A stretch of DNA of 64,000 nt from Tetraselmis striata (taxonomy: Eukaryota; Chlorophyta; Chlorodendrophyceae; Chlorodendrales; Chlorodendraceae), in the NCBI GenBank assembly GCA_006384855.1, contig VCJN01002026.1:1-64000 (forward strand). The letters are read 5' to 3'. Each line of letters opens with the position of its first letter. Position 1 is the stretch's first letter. Below are positions 3,301 through 56,000 of this stretch, piece by piece. Below the pieces are notes generated by a model. That model had not been told where the DNA came from, did not search any database, and was given only the letters and a program-made list of their open reading frames with translations. Both the position numbers and the translations under genes were made by a program.

Positions 3301-5268
3301 AGCTGTGGCAATTGCGATGTCTATATACAATGCCTCAGTCAATTGTTACATCGCCCTCCGAGCCCTCGAGCAGCGGCGCTGCTGGGCTCCAAGCATGCCT
3401 ACATGCGTAAACGCCGCAAGCAGTATCTGAAACCCAACGCAGGCACGCACACGACGTGGGCATATTCCTCACTCGCCCTCACGCGTCCCTGAGAGGCTGT
3501 ATCATATCTCGGCGATGTCTAATTTCTTGCACCTCATAAAAAGGGCCCTTATTTAATGCTACTGCCAGGCTATTATTCTTGATGAACCAACATTTACTGA
3601 CCTGCCCCCCGCCGTGTGCGCAAGTTTTACCATCTGAACTGTGGTATACATTCATATGAACGTATATCTACGCATCATATTATATCAAGTGACTGCACTG
3701 CCGTGCAAGCGTAGTGCTGGTGCCAATGCGCTGCTACGATACTCATATACAGGTGGTCGAGCGTGCTGCGCTTGCTGGCAACTGAAATGTATGTGCGAAA
3801 CGACCTTTACTTATGTGGAAAGGTATACTGGAGGTTGTGGTCTCATGATAATATGCTATACTTGCCGTTGCTTGCCCGCAGTGCGCACGGAATCACGTCA
3901 ACTCTATCATTAATAGTACACCGATAACATATACACGATACTCAGGTGGTCGAGCGTGCTGCGCTTGCTGGCGACTGAAACACATGCGCATAACGACCCT
4001 TACTAATTATGTGGAGAGGTATAAGTGAGGTTGTTGTCTGCGCTGATGATGCTGCCGATGCAACGCGCGCGGATTCATGTCAATAACTCTATCATAGCAT
4101 AAATTTTGATGCCGCCGACGCCCAAACGGGTAGGGCGGACCTTTCGTGGTCAGTGCCGGGTATTTTGATGGCAGTGTTTTAGACGGTGATCCAACAGTGT
4201 TGGAAATTCCGTCACTGGCCTCCAATTAGTCTTGCGAAATGCTTCGGCAATTTGCTTGATGACTATAACGGAGCGTCGCCTACCCAGGGCTTTCCGTAAC
4301 TGGATTGCTGCCTAAACGGCCGTCGTAGAGACGCTGCAAGGGTTTCACTGGTGCCAGTCCTGTCCCGGGGGCGGAAAAAAAAGCATAAATTTTAGAATCT
4401 ACGTAGAACTATTCGTAACTATCTCCATGTAAAATATATGTAAGTCCGAGCAGCAGCATCAGCGCGCGCTCGTAAGTACAGCATCAGCGCGCGCGCGCTC
4501 ATTCTCACCGCGCCCAGCCTCGGCACCTCCCCCCTCCTCCCCTCCCCCGCCGTCCCTCGCCTGGCGGGCCCTGAGGAGGCCGCTGCGAAGAACGAAAAGC
4601 ACACTCTTCTTCGCGCCAGTCGCGCTGCGGCACAAACAGTCTCAGCTCAACGCGCGTGCTTCTGAACCCTGAGGTGGCTTGACTACGATGAAGCTTGGAA
4701 GGTGATCACACCAGTCACCAGGCACAAAAACGCAGCAGGGCACGTATCCGGTATTTGCTTGGTTCGATATCGGATATTGCGGCCTCCGGCTCAGTAATGC
4801 ATGCGCGCTGCTGTCAGCAGCCTACAGCAACCTGCTCTCCTGCATCATCCGACCTGTCTTGCAAAACTCCGCCTGTCTCCTTGGGTTTGGAACTTGTTCT
4901 AGATCCGCCCCCTAACAGCCAACCCGCCGAGGTGTGCCAGCAGCCAGCACAGCACTATCAGTACGCGCGCGTACCGGGTGCCGTACATATACGCGCTCGC
5001 GCACATTTGGGCGCGCGTCTCTCATATCTGTAACAGGGTGCACTCTTACGAGTTAAGGTCGATGTTGAGCCGAACCTCGACGCGCCTGATGGGAGTGGCA
5101 ACTCGTCGAGCACTTATCCCGCGCGCCGTTGGTTGCAGTTGTGCGTCGTCGCCGTTGGACTACATCAATGCGCGCTTTCATATAGTGGGTATTCTGACAT
5201 CTTTTGACTCTGAATTGGCGGCGCTGCTCTTCCCCCCTGCTCTTCCGCTGTGCCCCTGAAGCTGGGTC
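380..5268. other. Intergenic stretch, no supported gene
   Basis: All long open frames here lack family motifs, codon bias or splice context. The stretch holds a short CA repeat (about 2599-2618), a diverged tandem duplication (3741-4100) and a GC-rich segment with many GCGC steps just before the membrane-protein gene (4440-5180). Nothing else is seen. Confidence 0.5.
3741..4100. repeat. Diverged tandem duplication, period about 200 bp
   Basis: The block starting near 3746 recurs near 3941. Both contain gtggtcgagcgtgctgcgct followed by tgctggc, then aacgacc, then a 'tatgtgga.aggtat' segment and finally a 'tcaa..actctatcat' end. The two units differ by substitutions and indels, so the duplication is old. 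No coding potential is shared. Confidence 0.6.
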
Positions 5269-6083
5269 ATGGCGGTGTTGTTGGCCGTGCTGGCGGCAAG
5301 TGTATCCACCAGCGCGCAGGCCATGTCCGAAACCTCCTTGGACGTATCCCACGACGGAGGGGCCTCTGCGCTACTCGGTGAGTGCGGCTTCGGCCTCGAA
5401 ATTTAAGCGGCCCCGCCGACACGAGTTTCGTCTTAGCGCCGATGTGTGTCAGTTGCCATACCAAAGATTTATGCTCAGCAGGGCGCAACCTGCCTCACCC
5501 GGACCTCTGAGGCCTGTGTCTTTTCCCTCTGCCAGCTGCCGTTATCTGGTTTGCCCTGCTGCTGGCCATCCCGGTGTGGGCGTGCGGCTTGACCTACGGC
5601 ATCATCGGCATCGACGTCGGCAGGCAGTGGCCCGACCCAAGCTGCTGCTGCTACCGCGCCCACAAGTCCGGCGGCGACCGAGGCTCGTCGTACGGCTGCG
5701 CGCCGCTGCTGCGCAGCTGCGTGGTGCTGCTGGTGCTGCAGGCGGTGTACGTTGTCCTGCACGTCGCACTGATGATCGTGGACGGCGGCATGTGGGTCCT
5801 GAGCTTTGTCGGCCTGATCTTCGACGCCGGCAGCCTGAGCGTGCTCATCGCGGCGGTGGCGCTGCTGCGGAAGGGGTACCACCTGCACGGCGGGCCGAGC
5901 CCCCCGGGGTCGACGGAGCGGCCACCGCTCACGGCCCACGTGTTGCAGATGGTTCCGGTGCACCACCCCGGCGCCCACGTGCCCACCCAAGTGGGGGTCG
6001 CCACCGTCGCGTATGGCACCCCGGCGCACTACTCGTACCCGCCGGCTATGCAAACAGCCACCGTCACGATGAACCACTGCTGA
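5269..6083 (+). CDS. Cys-rich four-helix membrane protein, copy A (2 exons)
   Basis: Exons 5269-5377 and 5536-6083 join (phase 1, G|CT = Ala) to a 218-residue protein. Residues 1-18 form a signal peptide (MAVLLAVLAASVSTSAQA). About four hydrophobic helices follow. Between the first two is a cysteine cluster, WPDPSCCCY, preceded by YGIIGI and followed by a GGD turn. After the last helix comes LLRKGYHLHG and a Pro/His-rich tail of about 55 residues. Copy B at 16.6-17.2 kb shares this order and has its intron at the same place and phase, so the two are paralogues and the model is well supported. TGTAA at 6129-6133 is a plausible polyadenylation signal. I do not recognise the family; function is unknown. 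A tetraspan-like topology is inference from hydrophobicity alone. Confidence 0.85.
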
Positions 6084-47792: not shown

Positions 47793-50700
47793 CCGTCCAA
47801 CATAGCGGGTAGTGATGACATCCACAAATAAAATCAGAGCAAGTTAAAAAATGCGGCCTACTGAAACACTTCAATAATAAACCTTAGTTTCTTGATTATG
47901 TGTATTATCGTTCTTTGTTTGCATGCTTGTTAATTTGTTATCCACAGCCAAGCACAGCCGACTTGATACTGTCGCTTGTGGTCCCTGAAGATATAGCGCT
48001 AGTGCACCACCTGAACCTTCATGTTATTGAGATAGCAGCCATGCAACCTTAGTTTGCACTCCAATCAATGCCATACATGGAGGACAGGTTGGGGGCACAA
48101 CGTTAATCATTGTTACTGGGGCCCCCGATATGAGGCCTCGGGTTGGCGCCTGCCCTGCTGGGGGCCACTTCCAGGGTTCTAGATTCTTGCCGCGTACATT
48201 GCCGCCATCAGCGTATCCATTGTCGCCGTCATCATTACTGATGCATACCACTGACCTATAAGTTGTGTTTTAGGGTTAATATTGACATTATTGGGGCACG
48301 AGATGCGTGTTCATGTGTTACAGAGGGTGTGGAACACAAACGCCTACATGAAGTCGGAAATGTTTAAAATAGGTTTTTTTGGGGGGGGGGGGGGGGGGGG
48401 GGGTTGATGCTGTAGCCTGTGCTGGGCGGCACACTATAGCGGCAAGCAAGCAATTAAAGCACCTGCCAGCTACTAAACCTAAAAGATCACTCTGCGCACT
48501 GCCATCTTGCCCTGTATGCTGCCTGTATGTGCCTTTTCACGCTCCACCGTCCGCGGCGGTTATGGTTTCCGGTTATGCGCCACCGGCACTACACACTACG
48601 CCCACCCTTGCTGCCTCACACTACTCATCACCAAAGCCGGCTTGCGACCACCTAAGACCACGCCCGGCATCGAAAAAGGTTGCCCGTACCAAGACTTCAC
48701 AGCCACGGGCCAAGGGACGATGGTCGGGCATGGCTGGAGCCGGTGCGCAGAAACACGCAAACAGCTTGTACAATCGGCACGAGGCGACAACGAATGTAAA
48801 CTTTACTTGCTCTTGCACTGGGACCGCCACGACACTCACCACTGGAACCCGCGTTTTTCCCGAGTCCCTGTGGGTGTCAGGGTGGCCAGGCTGGCGTGGG
48901 ATGTCATATGTAGGATGATATTGGATGTGGTACGGGCGGGTAGATCACAACCCAGTATTTGTAGTCGTTCGTGCGCACGACCAACTACAAAAAGTCGGAT
49001 GGGAGTAAAATATCGTTATCTGCTCACGGTGTGCAGATACACATTTACACCGAAAAATAACCAAGCACGGAAACCCCTGTCGATATGATTCCAGAAAGAT
49101 ATGTGCTGGATGCCAATTCAAAATAATACTCCGGAATGTCGAAACAGTTTCCATTACAGAAACAGAGCTGGCTTCCGCAGGTTGGGGAGAAACCAATCCC
49201 TGAGTAGAAATATCACAACTTGCCACCTCACGGTAGTCCCGCACTTGCGAATAAGCAATGGTTCGTAGTAGTAGTAGTCGGTAGTTGCAATAATCCATAG
49301 TCAGTGCGAGTGACCTGCACCAATTTTGGCATACGACTACCATAGTACAGTACAAATAGTGAAAGACCCGACACAGAGTGAACAAAAAGCTGCAAAACTC
49401 GACACGCTTCTCGTAGTGCTGGTCGAAGAACCCGCCCGACGGTCCGTTTTCCGCAGCTAGTACGATAAATAATATTCTATGAACGGCGAGCAAACGATGC
49501 ACTGACGAGCTCAGACATGGAGAGATACCCAGTCTAGAGGATTCGTCCCGAGAGATGACATTCTACCACGGAGACTTGGTTGCGTAGGGTCGTCGTCGTC
49601 GCCGCTGCTCGTTGTAGCCTCAACGAGGGAATAAATCTCTATACAAAATATAGGTATATATACATACATGTATATATATCATATATGTATATATGTTTAC
49701 ATATGTGTGTAATGTATATATATGCGTATATTCTTATACACAGATATATATTCTATGTTATATAAATATATTAGCGCCCAATATGCAAACTGCAGCTGTT
49801 ATGCATCACTATGGGTGCTGCATCCTATTGATGTCAATGTCGGCCTTCAAAGACCGAAATGCAACTCGCCTCCGACTTAATCAACCCTACGCGGGTCCCA
49901 TGAAGTCGGGTTATGAGTGTGACCGCCACATGATGAACAAGTAATCATATAATAGCCAATGTTAATTCTGAAGATGATGCCGCCACGGCATTAGTGCTGC
50001 AGCGGCGTAGTTACATTTTCATGATTGTGAGCTAATCGCAACATATTTCTGGCTGGGCGGCTCGTACCGCTCAATGTTAATCTGCCGGTGCACTGCTGTT
50101 CGTGTATCTACAAGTTCTCAGTGCCCGCCAAACACTCTGCACGGAACACCTCAGGCCAAGTGACACCCTATAAATCATCCCCAAATCATGTCCTAAATAT
50201 GCTGCATATTCAATTTACTACTGACAGACAGATCTTATCCGGGCGCACGCTATCTCGATTCGCTATATAATAGCAGCACCAGGATGATGCACTCTTGATC
50301 ATATCTGGCGAACCCATCCTACCCGGCCAGCTCGACTCCGCGACGTGCATGTGGACTCTAGCGGTGCCCGGGTTTCCCACTCATGGGCCTGGCATACATA
50401 CACGCCCTCCCGTACGGCGGACCACCCCCATTGCCGCCGGTGCTCACAGACCAGCTGATGGCTTACACACCGCCCGGCTCGCCACTGATGGCGGTCGTCA
50501 GTCATGGAGGATAGGAGGCATGCCTCTCCCGCCTCTCCTCCCACTACTGACAGACAGATCATATTACAATGCTACTGGTATTATTCGCTGCGACACCAGC
50601 CCACATGGACCACCCATTTATCTACATTTATGGCTAATGTCGTTGAGAGGTGAAGAGTGCCAAGTGCCGATATTCAATCTATGCAGCACATGTCGCTCCA

Positions 50701-50858
50701 GACATGCTGGTGCGGTTTAGAAGCTCTCTATTCACTACGCTAAAGCAGAAAGGAAAAATGTTATACAGGAATAGACTTTGGGGAGACTTTGCCAGCATGT
50801 GATTCTGCTGCCAGCAGTATCTTTGTGGGACAAGCCACCAGCCTGCACAATAGCACGG

Positions 50859-52364
50859 TCAAAAGTTCAAGGGAACGTCTGAGTGTCTCTTGCAAAAGTG
50901 GACCCAGGGCGATCCGCACCCAGTGTCCAAGGTTTTGCGGTCAGGCCTGCCATGTGCGATCCTCTGCTTCCACTGCAGGTACGTCTCACCGGGGCTGTAG
51001 GTCGTCGCATTGATCTTCTTTACCAGCATCTCCGCCAGCACAGCTTTGCAGAGTCGGGACGATGCATGCCCTTCTCTAGCCTGATTGCTGAGGTTGGCAC
51101 GTCGACCTTTCCTTGCATGGGTGATCTCAGTCCCAGGCGATTCTCCCTGGACCCAGTTTATACATAGTACGCTTCTGGCGTTTGAAAACCGAGCAGCCGG
51201 TTTTGGAACTAGGGCGATTTTCAATCCCAGGCACCCGCCCGGGGCTCTGCAGCAGAGGTCGCGCACCAAGTGGCGCTTGTCGAAAGAATCCGAGCCGCCG
51301 ATTACAACCGAGCTCAGCTTGACGGGTTGCTTGAGCGCGCTGAAAAGAGCGCTACCCTGGAGGCCGCAGACGGCCCACTTGAGTACTTTGTCGGAGCATG
51401 TCATCGAGGCGCGTCTGGTTGCGAGATGGGAACAGATTACGGCTGGGTATCCCTCGCCTGCGGTGATCTTGGTGCTCAGCTGCCCGGCATTTCGATGTTT
51501 TATCGACGCCAGGTCCGGGCAGTGATTGTCATCCGAAAGGGCAGAGACGAGCTTCCGTTTTGATCCTGAAACTGGGATAAAGCGCCGGGAATCGCCGCAG
51601 GGTGCAGTGCTGACATACAGATGGAACTCAACACCGTCACGGAGACGACCACCGCGGAAGATTGAATCTTGTCCTTCCACATCCTTGGCGATCATGGCCA
51701 CTACAAGGTACCGGAACAGGGCCCGCCGAGCTAGCACCTCCGCGTGGGAGTCGATCAATCGACGACCGTCAGCCGGCCCATCACGATGCTCTTGGGATAG
51801 AGTTTTGGTGCCGGTGGCCAATGAAATGACGGACAGGTTCGACCCGTCGCTTTGGATGAAGGCGGCTACGACTGCAGTTTCAGGGCACAAGGCTCGCAAG
51901 TCGGCGGATGGCACCTCTCCATAGATAGCACGAACGCGCTCCTGCACCATGACCACCATCCTTTGCTCGCGCAGCATGCCACTCTGACCTGTAGTTTGCT
52001 CCAGCTCTACAAGTGATGGGTACAGTACGCAAGGCCGGGCATTCTGCTTGACAGGTAGAGCTTCAATGATCAACGCGGCCGCGGCCGCCTTGGCCCGCTT
52101 CCTCTTGCGCCCTACTCCTTCGCGCTCCAACGTCACGATGTCCCCGACGACGCCGCGGGCGGAATCGCTGACGCACTGGTAGCTCAATATGCATCGCACT
52201 GTGTGTACATGGTGAGTCGATTGCCTTGAGGGGCAGATGATACTCACGTCTTCGTATGAGTGGCTGAGAATGCTGGCTACGCTGGAGTCGAGCGATAAGC
52301 GCCGCCGCTGCTTAAGAGACCCCTGCGCCGACTGGGATAGGGTGGTCACGCTGTTCGACGCCAT
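50859..52364 (-). CDS. ADAR/ADAT1-type adenosine deaminase, intronless
   Basis: A single 501-residue frame from ATG 52364. The deaminase (editase) domain is complete: zinc ligands H207 with catalytic E209 (LIDSHAEVLARRALFRYL), C256 (LYVSTAPCGDSRRF) and C323 (MTCSDKVLKWAVCGLQGSAL); also ATGTKTL, GQLSTKITAGEG and SSVVIGG. Such enzymes turn adenosine into inosine in RNA. Before the domain, about residues 55-105 read like the second half of a double-stranded-RNA-binding domain, ending EGVGRKRKRAKAAAAALIIE. ADAT1, which edits tRNA-Ala, normally lacks that domain, while ADARs have it but are thought to be animal-specific. The first 50 residues are unassigned. A candidate 49-base intron near 52250-52200 would break the frame and was not used. 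Lys/Arg-rich stretch at 95-105 could be a nuclear signal. Confidence 0.9.
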   Translation of the reverse strand: MASNSVTTLSQSAQGSLKQRRRLSLDSSVASILSHSYEDVSIICPSRQSTHHVHTVRCILSYQCVSDSARGVVGDIVTLEREGVGRKRKRAKAAAAALIIEALPVKQNARPCVLYPSLVELEQTTGQSGMLREQRMVVMVQERVRAIYGEVPSADLRALCPETAVVAAFIQSDGSNLSVISLATGTKTLSQEHRDGPADGRRLIDSHAEVLARRALFRYLVVAMIAKDVEGQDSIFRGGRLRDGVEFHLYVSTAPCGDSRRFIPVSGSKRKLVSALSDDNHCPDLASIKHRNAGQLSTKITAGEGYPAVICSHLATRRASMTCSDKVLKWAVCGLQGSALFSALKQPVKLSSVVIGGSDSFDKRHLVRDLCCRAPGGCLGLKIALVPKPAARFSNARSVLCINWVQGESPGTEITHARKGRRANLSNQAREGHASSRLCKAVLAEMLVKKINATTYSPGETYLQWKQRIAHGRPDRKTLDTGCGSPWVHFCKRHSDVPLNF

Positions 52365-52819
52365 GTGCACGGCGACCGGAGCTGGACTGCCCCCCTTGGT
52401 AACCTTGCGTGTGTAGACGCACGCTATTGTGTGTTCACATTGCTTTCCGCCACTACCTTCCAAGACATCCGTGGCTTCCGGGTACACTCATGCCAAGACC
52501 GTGATGCGGCTTATGATTGCGCTGTGGGTCCGCCGTCGTTTCGACTTTTGCGAATCGTCGCGGGCCAATATTGGAGCGAGGTACAGGGAGTCGCCAGGAC
52601 TACTCCATATTATTACCCCGCATAAACCTAGTAAAAACCTAATACATGGCGGCGTGTGGGCGCGAGGAGCCCGTCACCTGCTCTGATGCTGCAGAGTCGC
52701 GCTACTTTACTGACGTCGGGCTGTTTCGTCCCATCACCTTGCTCCAACTCCCCCTCCACATAGACAATTTCTCTTCAGACACCCCTTTAGCGCCGGGAAT
52801 TTCGCCGGGCGCCACCACC
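52365..52819. promoter_or_regulatory. Divergent intergenic region (probable shared promoter)
   Basis: Only 455 bases separate the start codons of the deaminase (minus) and the prolyl-4-hydroxylase-like gene (plus). Both promoters must lie here or overlap the 5' UTRs. No TATA box or clear operator could be picked out. Confidence 0.5.
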
Positions 52820-52970
52820 ATGACAACTGCCAGCCGCCGCCTCCTGGCGCTGGCGCTTCTAGCCGCGTGTCTGCCGAGCACGGGCGCACTCACCAAGCGC
52901 TACGAGGTGCGCCGAATGCCCAAACCCTGCAACCCTAAACAACACGCCGGGCAGCCAGCGGACGATAACT

Positions 52971-53002
<32 letters not shown>

Positions 53003-56000
53003 CTGCACCGTGGCGCAATGAGCGGAGAACTGACCGCATGAACTGCCCCTGTTCTCGGCCCGCTCTCGACCCCCCTGCGTACGACTGCTGGCCTCAGGTG
53101 GACGATCGCTTCCCGGGGTGGAAGGGTGAGGTTGCGGACGTACGCGTGGGCGGCGAGGGCGCGCGCGTCGCGGCGGCGACCGGAGGCCGCCACGGCTCCG
53201 CCCCAGACTGGGGCTTCGGCGCGCTCAAGGTGCCGCCTTCCGCTACTGGTGGCGTTTCTGGCTGGTGGGCTTGCGCGCAGAGGCGAGCAGATGGCGCTCC
53301 ATGGGGCTGCCCAGAGCCGCGGTCGCACTGTTGTTCATTATTTTTTTCTTCATTTTTAAATTGATTATTTAAAAAAAGATGCTCCATCACGTCTGAGGTG
53401 TGATCATCCAGACAAGCGCAGCCCTGTTGCTAATCTTCGAGCCGACTCCCCCTCCCTCTGTGGCAGGAATCCTGGCGTGGGGAGGTGGACGTGGTCAACT
53501 GGGAGCCGCGCGTCGTGTCGTACAAGGGCTTCCTCAGCGTGGCGGAGTGCGAGGCGCTGCTGGAGCTGGTCCGCCCCCCCTTTCCCGCCCCTTGCCACCC
53601 CCTCCCCCCTCCCACCGCTCCCCTCTTCCCGGCCCGCGTGTGCCGTATTCCACAAGCACCACACTGCCTCCAAAACACACGGTTTGCGCAGTGCTGTACG
53701 CAATGTGGAAGTTGGAGTGTGTGCCGGCCATCCTCCGGGGAATCCTATGCCCCGGGGCCGTTTGTCGCCCCGTGCGAACACATCGGACTGCGAAATGGCG
53801 CCTTTACTCCCTAATTGGAGTCCAGTCGGGTCCCCATTGGTATGCCCCCCCCTGACGCCCAAGACCCCGGGCGCGCTGTGGGCGCGCAGGGCCGCGACTC
53901 GGACATGCCGAGCACGCTGGCGCTGCCGGACGACGCGGGCGTGACGGTGGCGGCCGTGAACAAGCGCATCGGGGAGACCACCATGTTCCGCCGAGGTGCC
54001 CCCCCCCACTTTGTCTTCCCCCTATATTATTTCCGTCGACATGAATGACTAACCGCCATGACTAAGTATTTGAGTGTATTTGAGTGAGTTTTATTTATTT
54101 GAGTGAGTATGACTGAGTATTTGGACTAAGGCTCAGACTCGGCGCTGTTTACATACAGTTAACCGCGCCGGTGCCTTAGGTGCAGGTCCACGTGGCGTGA
54201 AGTTTGACGATTTCCTGAATAGTGCCGTCATGCGAAACACTGAAGAGCGATGCCCCCCCTCCCCCTAATCACCTGATGCGAGATCTTCAGTCAGTCAGTC
54301 TGTGTTGCGCGGGTCCTATAGATCGCGCTATCAAACCTCGTCATATCAAACCTCGTAATTACCTCTAATCAAGAACCTTCTATGATACCCTAGTCTGTCT
54401 AGATACCCTAGTCCGTCTGTATATACGCAGGCACGTATCTACCACATTGCCACGTGCACCATTTGCTGTGCCCATCCTGCGTGAGGTCCCGGGAGGAGTT
54501 GGGGCAGTGGCGCTGACTCTTTCCTGGCGGTGGGGGGGCCCGCCGTCCGCATCTGCGCGCAGCCGGCATGGCGGACCTCACGCTTCACCTCGACGAGGCC
54601 GCCGCCGCGTCGCCCGTGGCCTCGCTGGAGCACGCGCCCACGGCGAACGACCAACGCCTGGCCACGCTCTACATCAAGCTGTGCGCGACTCCCCCCCCCC
54701 CCCCATCGCCTTCCCTCCGGCATCTCCGTGCCCCTTCTCGCACCACTATATATACACTATATGCATTTATATACACAGACACACACATATACATATACAT
54801 ATGTATTTATGCATGTATGTGCACATATATATACCATATATACGAATGTATGCATAATACATATGAATATATATTAACAAATACGTATACACACATATAT
54901 ACATGTGTACAAATATACATATATACATGTATACGAATGTACACACATATATACGTATAAGTGTACACACGTATACATATATGTATATACATATGTATAT
55001 GCAGATATACACACATATATGCGAACGATACATATATAGTTCACAGACATACTCTCGCCATACATATACTGCAGATATTTTCATTGTTGCATCAGACGGT
55101 ATTGCCACCCTCCAACTCCATCCTCTATTCCCCCAGTGCCGCCTCATGGGTAGGATGGGGGGCAACGGGGATGACACAATCGAGCACCGATGATCAGCGA
55201 CGACTGCCTCTTGGTATTACTAACAATCACCAGCCGTCACGCTGGGAGGCTCTAGCCCACCTGCCACCGCTTTGGAGATGTGCCAGGGCCGGCTAGGCCG
55301 GCTGGCGACCTAGGCCCAGATAGCGTTTATGCTATTTTGCCATGGAGTTGGGGGCACTAGCTAGGTGAGGGGTGGAAGGAAGGGGTGACACCCGGTGCTG
55401 AATGAGAGACCCAGTATCCACACGCAACACCGTATGTTTAAATGCGGAATACCAACCGTTGCAACTCGGTTGACGGCAGGCAGCATGAGGCATGACGGCG
55501 GCAGCGCTGTTGCGGGCACGGACGGCGCAACCGGAGCTGGGTCGGTGGTAGGCCGTAGTTTGTGGGTCTCCGTGAATGTTGTCGGATGTGGTGGCGTGGC
55601 TCGTGGCGAAGTTCGCAGCAAGGATGAGTGACGCCTTGCGATGCGTGCCCGTCACCATGTCAGGAGTTGAAGGAAGGGGTGTCGTTGGGGGACACCCGGT
55701 GCTGAATGAGAGACCCAGTATCCACACGCAACACCGTATGTTCAAATGCGGAATACCAACCGCTGCAACTCGGTTGACGGCAGGCAGCATGAGGCATGAC
55801 GGCGGCAGCGCTGTTGCGGGCACAAAGGGTGCAACCGGCGCTGGTTTTGGAGGTGGTAGGCCGTAGTTTGTGGGTCTCTGTGAATGTTGTCGGATGTGGT
55901 GGCGTGGCGAAGTTTGCAGCGGGGATGAGTGACGCCTTGCGATGCGTGCCCGTCACCATGTCGCTGTGGTGCCCTCCTGCACAACCCCCCCCCCCGCCCC

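Follow-up and report, generated by a model that had tools for sequence, protein, structure and literature searches.

Can the domain layout of an animal ADAR, i.e., double-stranded-RNA-binding domains (dsRBDs) followed by an adenosine-deaminase (editase) domain, occur in a green alga? The question is raised by an intronless gene on the minus strand of the window, namely the whole stretch of 64,000 nucleotides of Tetraselmis striata analysed here. In the widely cited account of Grice and Degnan (PMC4323055, available portion), ADAR is a metazoan innovation with a single origin in the animal stem, where a duplicate of an ADAT gene was combined with a dsRBD, the two domains being first united in the lineage leading to animals; the sequence-only reading of the locus also regarded ADARs as an animal innovation. 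A study of Holozoa covering 22 species, in its available portion, agrees with a metazoan origin. Outside animals, ADAR-like candidates have been described in Symbiodinium (Liew and others, available portion), and a survey of 24 species published in 2025 (PMC11946409) reported protist ADAR-like proteins without a dsRBD, as judged by Pfam in the 13 sequences that it retained; the main text of this survey, as available, contains neither Tetraselmis nor a word beginning with chlorophy or alga. In the literature on ADAR outside animals, covered mostly through titles and the beginnings of abstracts, no dsRBD-bearing ADAR-like gene of a green alga was found, and the available portions of PMC9989829, PMC11120146, PMC11293857, PMC10120064, and PMC5357065 yielded no dsRBD-bearing ADAR outside animals.

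We propose, with a probability of roughly 70% and from sequence, that the product of the window gene is an ADAR-like RNA adenosine deaminase belonging to the green alga. It looks like the animal ADAR architecture on account of the editase domain, the homology of its N-terminal segment to a dsRBD, a paralogue with three dsRBDs, a separate ADAT1-type gene, and the green-alga host.

Editase domain and N-terminal segment

The features of the gene are as follows (window positions):
50859..52364, minus strand, ADAR-like gene, a single uninterrupted reading frame (501 codons and a stop) beginning MASNSV
52056..52364, minus strand, N-terminal segment (residues 1-103), homologue of a dsRBD exon in the paralogue on contig C1814
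52056..52283, minus strand, predicted dsRBD core (residues 28-103), with three strands followed by helix 2
52056..52121, minus strand, putative strand 3/helix 2 stretch EGVGRKRKRAKAAAAALIIEAL (residues 82-103), Pfam dsrm 12 bits, E 0.34
50961..51824, minus strand, adenosine-deaminase (editase) domain (residues 181-468), PF02137 A_deamin, 158.5 bits, E 3.8e-46
51738..51746, minus strand, H207-A208-E209, by alignment and residue check
51597..51599, minus strand, C256 in PCGD, by alignment and residue check
51450..51461, minus strand, AGEG (residues 302-305), E304 aligned to the glutamate that human ADAR1 and ADAR2 have in GEG
51396..51398, minus strand, C323 in TCSDK, by alignment and residue check

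Coordinates and frame were as first read, translation giving 501 amino acids and a stop in a single open frame, and the deaminase domain is likewise as complete as had been claimed, with H207/E209, C256, C323, GQLSTK (residues 294-299) ahead of AGEG, and GLQG (residues 334-337) all present; A_deamin is the sole Pfam domain in a scan of the full protein. We take H207-A208-E209 to supply a zinc ligand and the proton-shuttle glutamate, C256 and C323 to be zinc ligands, all with the roles they have in ADAR2, and E304 presumably to be the base-flipping glutamate. The gene accordingly displays the A_deamin domain with the zinc and catalytic residues of HAE, PCG, and SCSDK type that characterise an ADAR, together with the GEG-loop glutamate (AGEG), which the C1814 paralogue lacks (AGMG). 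All nine solved sequences matching the window protein are ADARs or bear an ADAR deaminase (ADAR1, ADAR2, worm adr-2, and others). Against solved ADAR2, the ADAT1-type gene of the alga scores 93.5 bits and the window gene 91 bits, so that similarity to ADAR structures is by itself no evidence for an ADAR.

The segment preceding the editase domain had been read as half a dsRBD. The stretch on which this was founded, ending EGVGRKRKRAKAAAAALIIE (residues 82-101), does lie inside the dsRBD-homologous segment, but the domain is more than a half, since residues 1-103 align to a recognised dsRBD exon and the model comprises three strands and helix 2. The local alignment of residues 1-103 with the C1814 exon scores 98, against a shuffle mean of 26.1 (sd 4.6), with none of 2000 shuffles reaching 98, and that first exon of C1814 is itself a recognised dsRBD (dsrm 33.4 bits, Pfam cut-off 23). 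Within the segment, EGVGRKRKRAKAAAAALIIEAL covers positions 45-66 of the 66 of the dsrm profile and includes the basic start of helix 2. While the full-length predicted model is unusable (pLDDT 33), the model of the segment alone presents strands at residues 28-43, 53-66, and 73-85, then a helix at 88-102, helix 1 being absent from it. In VIA-align, 26 of the 28 top rows for this model are titled dsRBD proteins or RNase III, ADAR1 and ADAR2 chains figure among the 50 matches listed, and Z stays below 8 among the matches listed. Structure prediction, one of the checks suggested from the letters alone, is thus in favour of a dsRBD fold within residues 28-102.

Another check, by profile, went the opposite way: Pfam dsrm makes no call in the full protein and reaches only the values given above for residues 82-103 when the segment is scanned alone, and a profile built on five dsRBD segments found elsewhere in the genome does not separate the window segment from shuffles (3 of 1000 higher). 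Foldseek yielded no hit reaching E 0.001. In a search of the whole genome, the window matches the dsRBD modestly, at E 0.00165, and the next-ranked place stands at 0.0425. Compared with C1814, the dsRBD segment has a dN/dS of 0.66/1.27, above the ratio of the deaminase. From the failure of Pfam and of the genome profile, the window dsRBD may be losing RNA binding. Residues 1-103 are nonetheless supported, by homology and modelling, as a divergent but nearly whole dsRBD. An N-terminal dsRBD, of which an ADAR has at least one, is hence recognisable in the window gene through exon homology and fold, not by Pfam directly, whereas Pfam finds it directly in the C1814 paralogue; neither gene consists of a deaminase alone without dsRBD, as ADAT1 does.

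Relatives in the genome and identity of the host

Searched with A_deamin, the genome yielded 7 matches, distributed over 5 contigs, namely C1814, the window contig (C1640) with C1604, and C666 with C1114. Three further stretches of interest are:
L016:5639-6262 and 3520-5334 (C1814), minus strand, complete ADAR-like paralogue, three dsRBDs and deaminase
L018:4048-4937 (C2671), apparently decayed ADAR-like copy, stops and broken frames
L019:3846-4824 (C164), apparently decayed ADAR-like copy, stops and broken frames

With one predicted intron, the C1814 paralogue has 744 residues, dsrm matching at 69.7 bits in 3 stretches and A_deamin at 166.8 bits. The splice model, drawn from simple GT..AG patterns with the donor near 5824 and the acceptor near 5316 of L016, joins the exons in frame and keeps the dsRBDs whole; with a second possible acceptor, part of the second dsRBD would be lost. 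The MASNSV start of the window gene is matched by MASDSV in the paralogue exon, i.e., the start codon and following residues are common to both. Between the two deaminases, dN is 0.36 and dS 1.25, the latter near saturation, for a dN/dS of about 0.28, silent change thus exceeding replacement change. As methionine stands for the GEG-loop glutamate in C1814 (GMG), the editing activity of this paralogue may differ. The window gene looks like the C1814 layout reduced to its first dsRBD and the deaminase and free of introns, the earlier statement that it is intronless being borne out, and retroposition could be the source of the missing introns. A PhyH domain near the window gene also sits within one open frame.

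The C666 and C1114 matches, like those on the window contig and C1604, are a pair and correspond to an ADAT1-type gene with a frame split by introns, a TYQSLPKTGKP stretch at the start and GRG ahead of SMSCSDK. We take the LPKxGKP start and the GRG before SMSCSDK as the marks of ADAT1; both are in this C666 gene and absent from the window gene. What the window gene has in common with ADAT1/Tad1 is the A_deamin domain and, with the ADAT1 of the alga, the DSHAE.ARRAL stretch, whereas it differs by its dsRBD and uninterrupted deaminase frame. A dsrm search of the genome produced 6 matches, two of them on C1814, with none on C666 or C1114 and none on the window segment. A separate ADAT1-type gene, the search for which had been suggested, is therefore present, and the window gene is not the sole A_deamin gene of the genome; by its sequence, it is a shorter member of a small family distinct from the ADAT1-type gene of the species.

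Using the C1814 protein as query adds C2671 and C164, with pieces like its first open-frame dsRBD and deaminase, in stretches 87.7% identical to each other across 6.2 kb. A Pfam dsRBD was not found in the single piece tested; judged from their stops and broken frames, these pieces are decayed ADAR-like relatives. Weak matches to the C1814 dsRBD exon (E 0.04-0.06) also appear at C2380:293865-294071 and C655:60562-60759, possibly further remote copies or chance.

C1604 and the window contig are two haplotype copies, 96% identical across 7.7 kb. The frame of the window gene is open in both, with 0 silent and 2 replacement differences. From about 49000 to 53500, identity is 99.6-100% per 250-base bin. 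This near-identical block of about 4.5 kb around the gene, with flanking bins at 89-98%, possibly reflects gene conversion or a homozygous block.

Decay among its relatives raises another reading of the window gene, i.e., an ADAD-like or decaying copy which binds dsRNA or nothing and has lost useful editing. One dsRBD plus A_deamin is indeed the ADAD layout of Grice and Degnan (PMC4323055, available portion), the window dsRBD is divergent, the copies on C2671 and C164 are broken, and the two haplotype copies differ by replacement changes alone. However, ADAD is described as catalytically inactivated, whereas H207, E209, C256, and C323 are intact in the window gene, the frame is open in both haplotypes, and the dN/dS of the deaminase against C1814 is low (about 0.28). 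We consider this reading improbable, and an ADAR-like enzyme remains the preferred one.

The host is, on marker genes, a green alga. RbcL on C1177 has 1gk8, which we take to be Chlamydomonas, as its best match, and the assembly contains 63 light-harvesting (PF00504) matches. Tetranucleotide correlation to the mean of four light-harvesting contigs is 0.878 for the window and 0.714 for C1814, against 0.719-0.862 for the four contigs, which are themselves part of that mean, 0.413 for a virus-like contig and 0.285 for a plastid stretch. Repeats are common to the window and the light-harvesting contigs C2685 and C1767, and a short repeat is common to C1814 and the window. These marker genes, the host-like composition and the common repeats indicate that the window gene and its C1814 paralogue are the alga's own. 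In pattern-based scans, no relatives were confirmed in viral and prokaryote contigs. The window includes 31 runs of at least 12 G or C in its 64 kb, such runs occurring in most, not all, sampled nuclear stretches.

An origin as an animal contaminant or by recent transfer from animals, which the animal-like architecture and the uninterrupted deaminase might evoke, is most improbable given this composition and these repeats, the gene on two haplotype contigs, the diverged and decaying relatives at several genomic loci, and an identity of at most 40% to the two human ADARs compared; the suggestion of transfer made in the sequence-only reading is, in its recent form, not supported. Its idea of an ADAR-like enzyme outside animals keeps its dsRBD-plus-deaminase layout, now accompanied by a three-dsRBD paralogue and a separate ADAT1-type gene, while the half domain is abandoned.

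Possible descent from ADAR or ADAT1 stock

With metazoan ADAR1 and ADAR2, the algal genes share the order of N-terminal dsRBDs (PF00035 repeats) then A_deamin (PF02137), the HAE, PCG, and SCSDK-type motifs, the GEG loop in the window copy, and, for the window gene, a deaminase 37-40% identical to the human ones; they differ by their green-alga host, their divergent dsRBDs, the GMG of C1814, and the lack of a Z-alpha domain among those listed by Pfam in C1814. With the protist ADAR-like proteins of Symbiodinium and paradinids (PMC11946409, PMC5357065, available portions), they share an ADAR-like deaminase outside animals, but the algal genes carry one (window) and three (C1814) dsRBDs where the 13 protist sequences scanned by Pfam are reported without any.

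The window deaminase is 35% identical to the ADAT1 of the alga and 26% to a provisional human ADAT1 sequence. The likeness to ADAR could then be by convergence and not by descent, the gene being a lineage-specific ADAT1 duplicate of green algae that gained dsRBDs independently. We hold this tentatively, at somewhat less than even odds; it concerns descent and is compatible with the proposed dsRNA-editing function. In the only six strict columns where the two ADARs agree and both ADAT1s, the alga's and the provisional human one, stand against them, the window gene has the ADAT1 residue in 5, the ADAR residue in 0, and neither in 1. The best six-row deaminase tree, with a support of 54/49 that is not starred, joins it to the ADAT1 of the alga, and a clade of ADAR, window, and C1814 genes is not rejected (p-AU 0.291); the reported lack of dsRBD in protist ADAR-like proteins (PMC11946409, available portion) also speaks for such a duplicate. 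Conversely, identity is lower to the ADAT1 of the alga than to human ADAR1/2, albeit by a small gap, and in columns set against the alga's ADAT1 alone, the window gene has the ADAR residue in 14, the ADAT1 residue in 7, and another residue in 21. The ADAR-like TK..AGEG moreover sits where this ADAT1 has GRG, and introns interrupt the ADAT1 frame whereas the window deaminase is uninterrupted. We make no claim of a common ancestry with animal ADARs.

On a broader scale, it appears evenly balanced whether (some) green algae operate an ADAR-type system for editing dsRNA, with genuine dsRBD-deaminase enzymes and at least two intact paralogues. The ADAR architecture would then be no animal invention, having either arisen in early eukaryotes and been mostly lost, or been assembled on two occasions out of ADAT1-like material. 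With its one-dsRBD and three-dsRBD versions, the alga opens the single animal-stem origin to testing, the alternatives being a pre-animal ADAR or a second, independent fusion; should the species prove culturable, the role of ADAR-type editing outside animals could be tested directly in it.

Proposed function and other dsRNA-related loci

The most likely mechanism, as far as domain content can tell, would be the deamination of adenosines in dsRNA under the guidance of the dsRBD: docked onto double-stranded RNA by its N-terminal dsRBD, the enzyme would flip out adenosines and deaminate them to inosine with the zinc-dependent editase domain at its C-terminus. The likeliest substrates would be long, self-complementary transcripts derived from repeats or from integrated viruses. 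Argonaute (Piwi) exons, with 9 matches on two contigs of the assembly, make dsRNA biology plausible in this cell. Alternatively, the enzyme could act in an organelle, in A-to-I repair of mitochondrial or plastid transcripts, as proposed for paradinid ADAR-like proteins. Residues 1-25 are rich in S and R and without acidic residue, and some other protists that have ADAR-like genes do edit A to I in their mitochondria (PMC11946409, available portion), but the start of the C1814 paralogue, MASDSVSILNEL, is of another kind and reads like helix 1 of a dsRBD; an organellar role is considered unlikely.

Two further loci were encountered. On the minus strand of L026 (C1905:56500-66400), a Helicase_C exon has upstream of it a row of similar dsRBD exons, three matching Pfam dsrm and a fourth by reading, a layout suggestive of a helicase of the dsRNA-sensing or Dicer type that carries dsRBD repeats. 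L027 (C2385:322000-331500, on a contig of 654,753 bases) is dense in long frames, one of them RNase III-like with a dsRBD, has no poly-G runs and is outlying in composition; it reads like a giant-virus-like contig or insertion in the same assembly.
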